Shown here piece after piece: positions 25,994-32,527 of a stretch of DNA of 36,841 nucleotides. Every line of letters begins with the position of its first letter. The first letter of the stretch is position 1. The position numbers and the translations under genes are program-made. The notes under the pieces are model-generated. The model saw only the letters and a program-made list of their open reading frames with translations, did not search any database and was not told where the DNA came from. The stretch is from Oceanicaulis sp. (GTDB taxonomy: Bacteria; Pseudomonadota; Alphaproteobacteria; Caulobacterales; Maricaulaceae): positions 1 to 36,841 of the forward strand of contig JAFIEB010000014.1 in the NCBI GenBank assembly GCA_020832735.1, in the 5' to 3' direction.

Positions 25994-27124
25994 ATGGCCC
26001 GCAAATGGATTTACGCCTCACGCACCGAAGGCACGGCCTCGCGCCAGGCCCATGCCGACATGCCGGAGGGCACCTATGAGCGCGAAATGAGCAAGGAGGG
26101 GTTTTTCGGCCCCGCCGCCTTCCTGCACCACAAGCGCCCGCCCCCCGGCTGGAGCAATTTTGAAGGCCCGCTCAAACCCCACGCCTTTGATCTCAACAGG
26201 CTGAACGCCGCCGAGGCCTCGCCCTGGGCGTCGTCGCAGGTGCTGTATAACGCCGCGTGCGAGGTCCGGTTCTGGAAGCTGGATCAGGCCATGCCGGCCC
26301 TGGCGCGCAATGGCGACGGGGACCAGATTCTGTTCATCCACCGCGGCGAAGGCGCGCTGTTCTGCGATTTCGGCCATCTGACGTTCGAGGCGGGCGATTA
26401 CATCGTGTTGCCGCGCGGGACCATGTGGCGCCTGGCGCCGTCAGGGCCTGCCGAAATCCTGATGATCGAGGCGACCAACAGCCATTACACCCTGCCGGAC
26501 AAGGGCCTGGTGGGGCCCCATGCGATCTTTGACCCGGCCATGTTCGACGTGCCCGCCATGGACGAGGCGTTCCGCGCCCAGCAGGCGGACGCCGACCATG
26601 AATGGCGCGTGGAGGTGAAGAAGCGCGGCCAGGTGAGCGTGATCACCTATCCCTACAACCCGCTCGACGCGGTGGGCTGGCATGGCGAGCTGCACCCGGT
26701 GCGCATCAATGTGCGCCATATCCGCCCGCTGATGAGCCATCGCTATCACGTGCCGCCCAGCGCCCACACGACCTTCCTGTCCGACCGGTTCGTGGTGTGC
26801 ACGTTTGCGCCGCGCCCGTTCGAGACCGATCCGGGCGCGCTGAAAGTGCCGTTTTTCCACAATAATGACGATTATGACGAGGTATTGTTCTATCACGCGG
26901 GCGATTTCTTCAGCCGCGACAATATCGATGCGGGCATGATGACCTTCCATCCGTCGGGCTTCACCCACGGGCCGCATCCCAAGGCATTGAAAAACATGCT
27001 CAGCCAGTCCAAACCGGCCACGGACGAGTATGCGGTGATGATCGACACCCGCGACCCGCTCAATGTGGGCGAGGGCGCGGCGGCGGTTGAGAATCCCGAT
27101 TATGTCAATTCGTGGAAGGGGTAG
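25994..27124 (+). CDS. hmgA: Homogentisate 1,2-dioxygenase (short bacterial form)
   Basis: This iron enzyme opens the ring of homogentisate to maleylacetoacetate in tyrosine and phenylalanine breakdown. The 376 residues form two cupin-like halves. Near the C-terminus are SHRYHVPPSAHTTFLSDRF, FFHNNDDYDEVLFYH and FHPSGFTHGPHPKA. His289, Glu296 and His325 are the likely iron ligands by comparison with the human enzyme (His335, Glu341, His371), with one extra residue between the first two. The form is about 70 residues shorter than the animal one, as usual in this bacterial branch. A GGGAG ribosome site precedes the ATG. fahA two genes on supports the pathway. A maleylacetoacetate isomerase gene and hppD are not in the window. 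Confidence 0.9.
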   Translation: MARKWIYASRTEGTASRQAHADMPEGTYEREMSKEGFFGPAAFLHHKRPPPGWSNFEGPLKPHAFDLNRLNAAEASPWASSQVLYNAACEVRFWKLDQAMPALARNGDGDQILFIHRGEGALFCDFGHLTFEAGDYIVLPRGTMWRLAPSGPAEILMIEATNSHYTLPDKGLVGPHAIFDPAMFDVPAMDEAFRAQQADADHEWRVEVKKRGQVSVITYPYNPLDAVGWHGELHPVRINVRHIRPLMSHRYHVPPSAHTTFLSDRFVVCTFAPRPFETDPGALKVPFFHNNDDYDEVLFYHAGDFFSRDNIDAGMMTFHPSGFTHGPHPKALKNMLSQSKPATDEYAVMIDTRDPLNVGEGAAAVENPDYVNSWKG

Positions 27125-29201: not shown

Positions 29202-30254
29202 ATGCGTTACTGGCTTATCGGACTGGGGCTGATCGCCGCGCTGATCGCGGCGCGCGTGGCCTATATCGTCATTCCTGCATCCGGCGCCCTGACGCCGGTC
29301 AGCGAGATCGGGACCGAAGACTGCCAGCGCGTGCCGGTGGCGCCAGGCACGGAGGATGTGACCATTGATCCGGTCACCGGCCTGGCCTTCGTCTCCGCCC
29401 AGGACCGGCGTGCAGGCGCAATGGCGCAAACCAATGGCATCTATGTGTTTGATCCGGCCGGGCCCGGGCGCGTGCGGCGCGTATCCAACGATACGCCCGC
29501 CGATTTCCGCCCGCACGGCATCAGCCTGTGGCGAGGCGAGGGCGCGGAGGGGTCGGAGCTCGCGCGCCTGTTCGTGATCAGCCATCCCGCCTCCGGCAGC
29601 CAGGTTCTGATCTTCGATATCGCGGACGACGGTTCGCTGACGCATCTCGAAACTGTCACCGATCCCGCCATCCGCTCTCCTAACGACGTGGTCGGGGTGG
29701 GGCCGCGCCAGTTCTACATCACCAACGACACCTATTTCGGCGATATGCCCATGGGCTATCTGGAGGCCTTTCTCGGCCTGCCGCTGGGCAGTGTGGCGTA
29801 TTTCAATGGCGAGACGGCGCGCATCGTCGCTGACGGCTTCATCTACACCAATGGAATCAATGTGAACGCCGCCGGCGACCGTCTCTACGTTGCCGCGTTC
29901 CTGGGGCGTGAGGTCCGGATTTTCGAGCGCAATGCGTCCGATGGCGCGCTGCGCCGGTTGGCCTCACACCGTATGCCCATGGGCGCGGACAATATCGAGA
30001 TCGGTCCCGACGGCGCGCTCTATGTCGGCGGCGGCGTCGATGTCTTCGCCTTCCTCGCCCACGCCGAAGACCCGGACGCGCTGGCGCCCTCCATCGTCAT
30101 GCGCCTCGATCCCGAAACGGGCGAGCGCCGGACCGTGTTCATGAATGACGGGTCACTGATCAATTCGGCCAGCGTGGGCGCGGTCCATGACGGACGCCTG
30201 GCGGTGGGCGCTGTGTTTGACGGCCACGTGCTGCTCTGCCCCTATGCCGGTTAA
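29202..30254 (+). CDS. Paraoxonase (PON)-family lactonase/arylesterase, membrane-anchored or exported
   Basis: This 350-residue six-bladed propeller enzyme resembles animal PON1. An N-terminal hydrophobic segment (3-25) is a signal or anchor, as in PON1. The calcium-site and catalytic residues of PON1 can be placed one by one. Glu51-Asp52 (GTEDVTID), His105 (RPHGIS), His128 (VISHPAS), Asn161-Asp162 (SPNDVV), Asn217 (TNGIN) and Asp263-Asn264 (ADNIEI) correspond to PON1 Glu53-Asp54, His115, His134, Asn168-Asp169, Asn224 and Asp269-Asn270. Cys41 and Cys346 match the PON1 disulfide, so it should act outside the cytoplasm. PON enzymes hydrolyse lactones and aryl esters. A homoserine-lactone or other lactone substrate is an inference. 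It is divergent from bfd and 26 bases before a crotonase-family gene. Confidence 0.85.
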   Translation: MRYWLIGLGLIAALIAARVAYIVIPASGALTPVSEIGTEDCQRVPVAPGTEDVTIDPVTGLAFVSAQDRRAGAMAQTNGIYVFDPAGPGRVRRVSNDTPADFRPHGISLWRGEGAEGSELARLFVISHPASGSQVLIFDIADDGSLTHLETVTDPAIRSPNDVVGVGPRQFYITNDTYFGDMPMGYLEAFLGLPLGSVAYFNGETARIVADGFIYTNGINVNAAGDRLYVAAFLGREVRIFERNASDGALRRLASHRMPMGADNIEIGPDGALYVGGGVDVFAFLAHAEDPDALAPSIVMRLDPETGERRTVFMNDGSLINSASVGAVHDGRLAVGAVFDGHVLLCPYAG

Positions 30255-30280
30255 CCGGCTGTACCAATAAAGGATTTTCC

Positions 30281-31057
30281 ATGACCGACGATATCCGTGT
30301 CGAGGATGCTGACGGCGTGCGCACCGTGCGCTTCAACCGCGCCGCCAAGAAGAACGCCATCACCCGCGCCATGTACACGGCGATGGCCGAGGCGCTTGAT
30401 GGCGCCAGCGCGGACGCGAATGTGCGCGTTGTGGTGATCGCCGGAACCGGGGGCGTGTTCACCGCGGGCAATGACCTTGTGGACTTCATGGAGGCGCCGC
30501 CGCATATCGGCGGGGCGGAGACGCCGCCCGTCGAGCATTTCATGCGCTCCCTGATGGCCTGCCGCAAGCCGGTCATCGCGGCGGTGGACGGCCTGGCCAT
30601 CGGCATTGGCGTGACCCTGTTGCTCCATTGCGATTTCGCCTACACGTCTGACCGGTCGGTGTTCCGCACGCCCTTTGTCGATCTGGCGCTGGTGCCGGAG
30701 TTCGGGTCATCGGTGCTGCTGCCGGGCCTGACCGGGCGCGCCGTGGCGGGCGAGCTCCTCATGCTGGGCGAAAGCTGGGATGCGGCGCGGGCCGAGCGTT
30801 ATGGCCTGGTCAACGCCGTGTTCGCGCCCGGCGCCCTTGAGGACGAGGTGATGGCGCGCGCCCGCACACTGGCCGCCAAGGCGCCTGAAGCCATGCGTCA
30901 GACCAAGGCGCTGATCCTGGCCGGTCAGGCCGCGTTGATGGACGTGATCCGCGCTGAAGGCGAAGTCTTCGCCCGACAGCTCTCGTCGGCCGAGTTCAAG
31001 GAAGCGGTCACCGCCTTCCTGGAACGCCGCCCGCCGGATTTCTCGAAGGCGGGTTAG
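30281..31057 (+). CDS. Enoyl-CoA hydratase/isomerase (crotonase) family protein
   Basis: This 258-residue acyl-CoA-modifying enzyme has the crotonase fold. The oxyanion-hole segments are GVFTAGNDLVDF (about 58-69) and AVDGLAIGIGVTLLLHCD (101-118). The catalytic-face segment reads FVDLALVPEFGSSVLLP. Only Glu140 is present as acid at the usual second position, and the PE of typical hydratases reads Val-Asp. A single glutamate in VPEFGSS is more like delta3,delta2-enoyl-CoA isomerases than bifunctional hydratases. The C-terminus ends RRPPDFS, common in these proteins. Exact substrate is unknown. It may be cotranscribed with the PON-like gene and converges on the unknown tail-anchored gene. Confidence 0.87.
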   Translation: MTDDIRVEDADGVRTVRFNRAAKKNAITRAMYTAMAEALDGASADANVRVVVIAGTGGVFTAGNDLVDFMEAPPHIGGAETPPVEHFMRSLMACRKPVIAAVDGLAIGIGVTLLLHCDFAYTSDRSVFRTPFVDLALVPEFGSSVLLPGLTGRAVAGELLMLGESWDAARAERYGLVNAVFAPGALEDEVMARARTLAAKAPEAMRQTKALILAGQAALMDVIRAEGEVFARQLSSAEFKEAVTAFLERRPPDFSKAG

Positions 31058-31060
31058 CGC

Positions 31061-32527
31061 TTAAAGCCGCATGCCCGCCACGATGCCCAGCGCCACCAGG
31101 CCGGCGGCGCCGACCACGATCAGCGCGCCATAGCCCACGCGCCGCCAGAACATGGCGCGGGCGAGATCGGCCTGGCGCGGATGGCGCGCGAAGGCGGCGG
31201 CGGGCAGCTCTCCGGCCATATCGCCTTCGGGATGGCTGGTGGCGGCGCCAGTGGCGAACTGGCTGAGCCGCGCCATCAAATCGACCGCCAGGCGCGCTGT
31301 GGCCTTGTCCTGCAGCTGCAGAAGCAGTTCGCCCTCGCCATGGCTCAGGCGCTTGCCGGCCATAGCCGTCGGCGTTTCGGTCCGTGTCAGCCTGGAATAG
31401 CGGCGCACTTCCTCTGTTTCTGCGTCATCGGCGTCAGTCTTGCCGGACGGCAGGCCGAACAGGACAAGCCGCATGACGAATTCGGCCAGATTAGCGCGTT
31501 CGAGAAGCTTCACCCGTTCGCTTCGCTCGATGCCATGGCCTTGCGCCAGAGCCTCGCCCAGGCGCTTGATCCGGTAGGCGGCCGCCAGCGGCTCCTCCAC
31601 GCCCTTGAGCGAGCCGGGCGCCGGCTTGGCGCGGCGGCTGGTCAGGAGGCCCAGGCGGCGGCGCGGCTCTCGCGGCGGCTTGGCCCGCACGAACGGGCCG
31701 CGCCCTACTCCGCCAAAACTTTTCAGGCAGGCGTCGAACGCCTGGCGCGCCGCGCGCACAGCCGCAGCATGGCGCACCTTGTCCGACAGCAGATCGGAAG
31801 AGAGCAACTGGTCGGCTTCCCAGAGCCGGCGTGCGGCGTTTCTCAGCGCCTCGGCGGCCGCCTGGGGATCGAACGCCACGCTTTCGCCGGACCGCTCCAG
31901 ATTGGCTTTCCGGCGCAGGGCCGCATCCGACTGAAGCTTCAACGAGAGCAGAATATGGTCGAACTGGCTGTCGCGGTCAGGCGGCCAGTCATTGCGCCGC
32001 CAGCGGCCAAGCTGGAAATACCAGCGCGACTGGCCCTGCTGCAGGCGCGAGTTCAGGTCCCGGCTGAAATCAAGCTGTTCCTCGCCCGGCAAGAGGTCGA
32101 AGAACATCTCCACGAAATCAAACACCAGGAGATTGGCCGCGAGGCCGTACGGGTCATCCTTGACCGGCTCGATCTCCGGCGGGCGCCCGGCATAGTCGAA
32201 CAGCCAGTCCAGACCCGCCAGCACCACTTCGGCGCGCGCGTGTTCGCTGCGCTGCTGGTAGGCGTCGGCCATGCGCTTGGCGGCCCGGCGCGGCAGGTCC
32301 TTGACCGCGCGCTGCTCATTGACGTTGTCGATGGCGCGCTTGACCTGGATGCGCATGTCGCTTTCGCGATCAATGTGCAGCTTCAGGCGCGCCTGGGGCG
32401 CCTCGCTGGTTTCCTCGGCCCACTGCTCCAGCGCGCGATAGTCATGCAGATGCAGGTCTTCGGAAAACAGATCCCCGCATCCGATGCGCGCCTGATAGCG
32501 CTGGCTGAACAGCTCGCTCACGCTCAT
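31061..32527 (-). CDS. Tail-anchored helical protein of unknown function, coupled to cca
   Basis: I do not recognise this 488-residue protein. It begins MSVSELFSQRYQARIGCGDL and is predicted mostly helical and charged. A conserved-looking tryptophan-rich section lies near 165-195 (RWYFQLGRWRRNDWPPDRDSQ in part). A basic, proline-containing linker (about 275-310) and an acidic spot near 370 follow. A single hydrophobic stretch of about 20 residues lies at the very C-terminus (about 466-486, YGALIVVGAAGLVALGIVAG). With no signal peptide this looks like a C-tail-anchored inner-membrane protein with a large cytoplasmic part. Its ATG overlaps the cca stop. It is the last gene of the DUF1285-nudix-small protein-cca operon and has codon use like its neighbours, so it is a real gene. 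Confidence 0.75.
   Translation of the reverse strand: MSVSELFSQRYQARIGCGDLFSEDLHLHDYRALEQWAEETSEAPQARLKLHIDRESDMRIQVKRAIDNVNEQRAVKDLPRRAAKRMADAYQQRSEHARAEVVLAGLDWLFDYAGRPPEIEPVKDDPYGLAANLLVFDFVEMFFDLLPGEEQLDFSRDLNSRLQQGQSRWYFQLGRWRRNDWPPDRDSQFDHILLSLKLQSDAALRRKANLERSGESVAFDPQAAAEALRNAARRLWEADQLLSSDLLSDKVRHAAAVRAARQAFDACLKSFGGVGRGPFVRAKPPREPRRRLGLLTSRRAKPAPGSLKGVEEPLAAAYRIKRLGEALAQGHGIERSERVKLLERANLAEFVMRLVLFGLPSGKTDADDAETEEVRRYSRLTRTETPTAMAGKRLSHGEGELLLQLQDKATARLAVDLMARLSQFATGAATSHPEGDMAGELPAAAFARHPRQADLARAMFWRRVGYGALIVVGAAGLVALGIVAGMRL

Follow-up and report, generated by a model that had tools for sequence, protein, structure and literature searches.

Bacterial PON-like (paraoxonase-like) lactonases acting on acyl-homoserine lactones have been on record since 2013, when they were reported by Bar-Rogovsky, Hugenmatter and Tawfik (doi 10.1074/jbc.M112.427922, as cited in PMC9878147 and PMC9927378), and one bacterial PON, PONX_OCCAL, hydrolyses acyl-homoserine lactones according to PMC9878147. 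The native substrates of PONs are still described as unclear (PMC9937041). We analysed a 36,841-nucleotide stretch of DNA, referred to here as the window, from the 2.8-Mb genome of an alphaproteobacterium whose genus includes genomes that match Alkalicaulis satelles and the MAG Oceanicaulis sp. PBR18_bin52; Alkalicaulis and Oceanicaulis are both in the Maricaulaceae. We take the OCCAL of PONX_OCCAL to be Oceanicaulis alexandrii, a member of the Maricaulaceae like the relatives of the window genome.

A PON gene is present in 14 of the 15 genomes of the genus, host included, and in the window it is an open reading frame of 350 codons with an ATG start, the position of which is kept in close relatives. 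Its product is 87% identical to the protein of PBR18_bin52 and 83% identical to that of Alkalicaulis satelles. The earlier note, made from the letters of this DNA, had called the product a paraoxonase and had proposed an arylesterase-family profile search and a structural overlay on PON1 and PON2 as checks; the profile search and a structural comparison bear the assignment out. The Pfam Arylesterase model (PF01731) scores 62.4 bits against a gathering cut-off of 21.3, and the SGL model (SMP-30, PF08450) also passes, at 29.6 bits against 26.3, below the Arylesterase score. With phmmer, PON1 structures are matched with E 4e-37 (residues 38-341), rising to 4.7e-64 and reaching PON1 residue 353 with a 31-sequence family profile; overall identity to PON1 (1v04) is 32%. 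An AlphaFold2 model built from an alignment (pLDDT 92.8, pTM 0.91) consists of an N-terminal helix followed by an all-beta domain. PON1 entries make up all ten of its best PDB matches in Foldseek (TMq 0.82-0.84, rmsd 2.3-3.1), followed by strictosidine synthases at about 0.6 and SMP-30/gluconolactonases at about 0.55. The closer kinship to SMP-30/gluconolactonases that the note had named as a possible refutation is not seen, as PON1 is the nearer by Pfam, phmmer and Foldseek alike. The window protein is a genuine member of the PON family, with a residue agreement with PON1 far beyond chance.

Table 1. Features of the PON locus and of related loci in a sister genus; residue numbers are those of the window PON, with PON1 counterparts in brackets.
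Feature	Position	Strand	Basis
PON-family (arylesterase/paraoxonase) gene, probable lactonase, 350 aa	29202..30254	+	Pfam, phmmer, family profile, AlphaFold2 model, structural matches
N-terminal hydrophobic helix, residues 2-27, probable uncleaved signal-anchor	29205..29282	+	AlphaFold2 helix, Kyte-Doolittle-19
Cys41, predicted disulfide partner (Cys42)	29322..29324	+	alignment, conservation
Glu51-Asp52, predicted catalytic-calcium and structural-calcium ligands (Glu53/Asp54)	29352..29357	+	alignment, conservation
His105 (His115)	29514..29516	+	1v04 alignment
His128 (His134)	29583..29585	+	1v04 alignment
Asn161-Asp162 (Asn168/Asp169)	29682..29687	+	alignment, conservation
Asn217 (Asn224)	29850..29852	+	alignment, conservation
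Asp263-Asn264 (Asp269/Asn270)	29988..29993	+	alignment, conservation
Cys346, predicted disulfide partner (Cys353)	30237..30239	+	profile alignment, conservation
Crotonase-fold acyl-CoA enzyme, conserved partner, 26 bp downstream of PON, ECI2-like	30281..31057	+	synteny, Pfam, structure-sequence matches
Sister-genus penicillin-amidase-family gene, L066	9500-11668	-	Pfam
Sister-genus penicillin-amidase-family gene, L070	5850-8108	+	Pfam
Sister-genus penicillin-amidase-family gene, L084	6116-8284	+	Pfam

Residue correspondences were taken from an alignment to the PON1 structure 1v04. All five ligands of the catalytic calcium have counterparts (Glu51, Asn161, Asn217, Asp263 and Asn264), as do the ligands of the structural calcium (Asp52, Asp162 and the backbone of Ile107, for PON1 Ile117) and the His105/His128 dyad, so that the residues needed for calcium-dependent lactonase chemistry are present, as had been claimed, and the 56-residue spacing noted between Asn161 and Asn217 is correct. 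The calcium side-chain ligands are invariant across 31 homologues, 30 of which also have the dyad. Together with the predicted fold, these residues suggest that the window PON is very probably a calcium lactonase.

The broader claim that all PON1 active-site residues are retained stands for the metal ligands and the dyad but not for the rest of the pocket. PON1 Cys284 and His285 are replaced by Gly277 and Gly278, Phe222 by Tyr215 and Thr332 by Ser324; Phe292 also differs, and Leu69 and Tyr71 align with Asp68 and Arg70, in a region beside a gap, where the 1v04 alignment is least certain. The organophosphatase pocket of PON1, looked for at His285, Leu69, Phe222 and Thr332, is therefore absent at these positions of the window PON. 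At the His285 position, 14 of the 31 homologues, window PON included, have Gly or Asn, and because this position is variable and the pocket lining is changed, the enzyme may accept a different range of substrates from PON1.

Two further observations concern the same region and the wider family. Bacterial homologues have Gly, Asn or His at the His285 position, and His287 (30060-30062), which aligns with PON1 Tyr294, is invariant in 31 of 31 bacterial homologues and could be a substitute active-site residue. In order-level relatives there are PON paralogues that have lost both dyad histidines (L033, L035, L036, L037, L040, L042 and others) and retain the N-terminal cysteine and all or most of the calcium ligands. 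The dyad positions are Ile and Asp in L033 and Leu and Asp in L040, and L035-L037, L040 and L042 additionally carry a substitution at the position of PON1 Asp169; these paralogues are possibly PONs with non-lactonase or altered chemistry.

Cys41 and Cys346 are the sole cysteines of the window PON and are invariant in the 31 homologues. Cys41 aligns with PON1 Cys42 in the 1v04 alignment, and Cys346 corresponds to Cys353 through the family profile, which aligns as far as PON1 residue 353; the pairwise alignment ends at PON1 349, and its simple extension places the Cys346/Cys353 pair one residue out of register. The N-terminal helix has a Kyte-Doolittle-19 maximum of 2.35, and its hydrophobicity is conserved in relatives. 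The two cysteines and the N-terminal hydrophobic stretch described in the earlier note are thus recovered, and the export it had proposed is supported as probable. The presence of just two cysteines, both invariant, together with the N-terminal hydrophobic helix points to an oxidising compartment, and the window PON is probably membrane-anchored and outward-facing.

The PON gene and the crotonase-fold gene downstream of it form a unit (29202-31057) that is kept in 17 genomes, host included: every one of the 14 genomes of the genus that carry PON, plus three from two further genera. In 11 of the 17, few or none of the other flanking genes are shared with the window, and this persistence of the pair while its flanks change strengthens the link to the adjacent crotonase that had been suggested from the window sequence. 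The two genes may be co-transcribed. A promoter and terminator scan returned nothing useful. A PE(F/Y)G(S/A)S motif is conserved in the crotonase. Among named structures human ECI2 is a high-ranking match (E 1.7e-36), although the top hits overall are unassigned enoyl-CoA hydratases/isomerases. Within this superfamily, the motif and the rank of ECI2 presumably point to a delta3-delta2-enoyl-CoA isomerase, and the comparison suggests that the enzyme is ECI2-like in this sense. As it is expected in the cytosol whereas the PON is expected to face outwards, the two could be coupled only indirectly. Beyond the pair, a 488-aa protein encoded at 31061-32527 on the minus strand is 71-86% conserved in close relatives and has a C-terminal hydrophobic segment; searches of Pfam and NCBIfam gave no match to it.

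Five other PON-bearing genomes of the same family, with about 50% PON identity, have no adjacent crotonase and carry other genes there. Three of these five belong to one sister genus, in which a penicillin-amidase-family gene lies directly before PON (Pfam about 293-295 bits) and a transporter-like gene follows it (MFS_1 157 bits in L070, the one tested). The closest matches of the amidase are cephalosporin acylases (E 9.5e-42), and the acyl-homoserine-lactone acylase PvdQ is also matched (8.8e-23); a lactonase-acylase pairing would fit degradation of acyl-homoserine lactones. The host genome has three penicillin-amidase-family genes, all on other contigs than PON.

We favour, with a probability of roughly 0.8, a reading in which the PON is an outward-facing lactonase that opens lipophilic acyl lactones, the product passing to fatty-acid catabolism with the crotonase-like enzyme. 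The PON would be a six-bladed beta-propeller anchored in the inner membrane and facing the periplasm, in which the catalytic calcium, held by the five ligands named above, would polarise the lactone carbonyl and the His105/His128 dyad would activate water for ring opening, while a second calcium (Asp52, Asp162) and a Cys41-Cys346 disulfide would hold the propeller closed. The substrates would most likely be external lipophilic acyl lactones, either acyl-homoserine lactones or hydroxy-fatty-acid lactones. After ring opening, the product would be broken down by fatty-acid catabolism, with the crotonase/enoyl-CoA isomerase-like enzyme encoded next door as a participant, and any quenching of neighbours' signals would be a by-product of the catabolism of foreign acyl lactones.

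A second possibility, which we regard as tentative, is that the PON is a dedicated quorum quencher that destroys the acyl-homoserine lactones of competitors, with any carbon gain incidental. Turnover of the host's own signal was considered and is unlikely, since the host genome has no match to the LuxI family (in a profile search with a model that matches 18 of 142 alphaproteobacterial genomes) and none to the LuxR autoinducer-binding domain (an E. coli positive control was matched). These same results mean that a quencher would leave the host's own signalling undisturbed, and quenching of other organisms' lactones is plausible because PONX_OCCAL hydrolyses acyl-homoserine lactones (PMC9878147), although what a relative hydrolyses in vitro does not establish what the window PON does in vivo. 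The predicted outward orientation would suit a quencher, as would the sister-genus amidase neighbour, whose family includes PvdQ, but that amidase is nearer to cephalosporin acylases, and a CoA-pathway enzyme as the conserved partner in the window lineage is suggestive of catabolism.

It is very improbable that the PON serves aromatic catabolism by reopening a homogentisate lactone. In favour of this, the genes immediately upstream encode a homogentisate-dioxygenase-like protein, a carbonic anhydrase and an FAH-like protein, and PON1 accepts aromatic lactones such as 2-coumaranone. However, an opposite-strand BFD ferredoxin gene separates this block from PON in the window, and only the five closest relatives also have the block beside PON; the flanks examined in the remaining 11 PON-crotonase genomes lack its genes, except for one FAH homologue 8 kb away. 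This synteny speaks against a link between PON and the upstream cluster, which was rejected. The dioxygenase-like protein itself (25994-27124) scores 79.9 bits against an HmgA equivalog cut-off of 510.75 and, being so far under it, is probably a divergent relative.

A sugar lactonase of the SMP-30/gluconolactonase type, to which the passing SGL score and the shared propeller superfamily could point, is scarcely credible and was rejected, as the Arylesterase model and the PON1 structures score far higher (62.4 against 29.6 bits; TM 0.83 against about 0.55), the dyad, the ligands of the second calcium and the pair of cysteines are as in PON, and an N-terminal hydrophobic helix is present.

The acyl-lactone catabolism that we prefer could be extended to the Maricaulaceae, with PON opening the lactone in a dedicated acyl-lactone catabolic module whose partners would differ by lineage, being either an ECI2-like isomerase or a penicillin-amidase-family acylase and MFS transporter. 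We consider this generalisation unlikely as it stands; if true, a PON enzyme would have a native role in metabolism. In the host, a small bacterium, the one close PON gene is paired with that of an acyl-CoA enzyme in a conserved unit of two genes, so that native substrates could be sought in a simple genetic system.

Among known systems, mammalian PON1 (1v04, 3sre) shares with the window PON its fold (TM 0.82-0.84), all calcium ligands, the His115/His134 dyad, counterparts of Cys42 and Cys353 and an N-terminal hydrophobic helix. It differs in that the two proteins are only 32% identical, His285 and Cys284 are both replaced by Gly, Tyr294 corresponds to an invariant His, and the paraoxon-hydrolysing pocket is not conserved. 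The SMP-30/gluconolactonase family (PF08450) belongs to the same six-bladed propeller superfamily, but the match in sequence and fold is much weaker, and to our knowledge its members have neither an N-terminal anchor nor a terminal cysteine pair. PONX_OCCAL is likewise a bacterial PON-family protein from the same bacterial family, a comparison made by family resemblance. With bacterial PON lactonases known from 2013 onwards, the window PON has little novelty, and as a well-preserved ordinary member it adds, pairing apart, a further sequence to a known family. What is new here is the crotonase pairing conserved across 17 genomes and the amidase pairing in a sister genus, and it is this association of a PON with an acyl-CoA enzyme, or with an amidase, that is the feature worth following.
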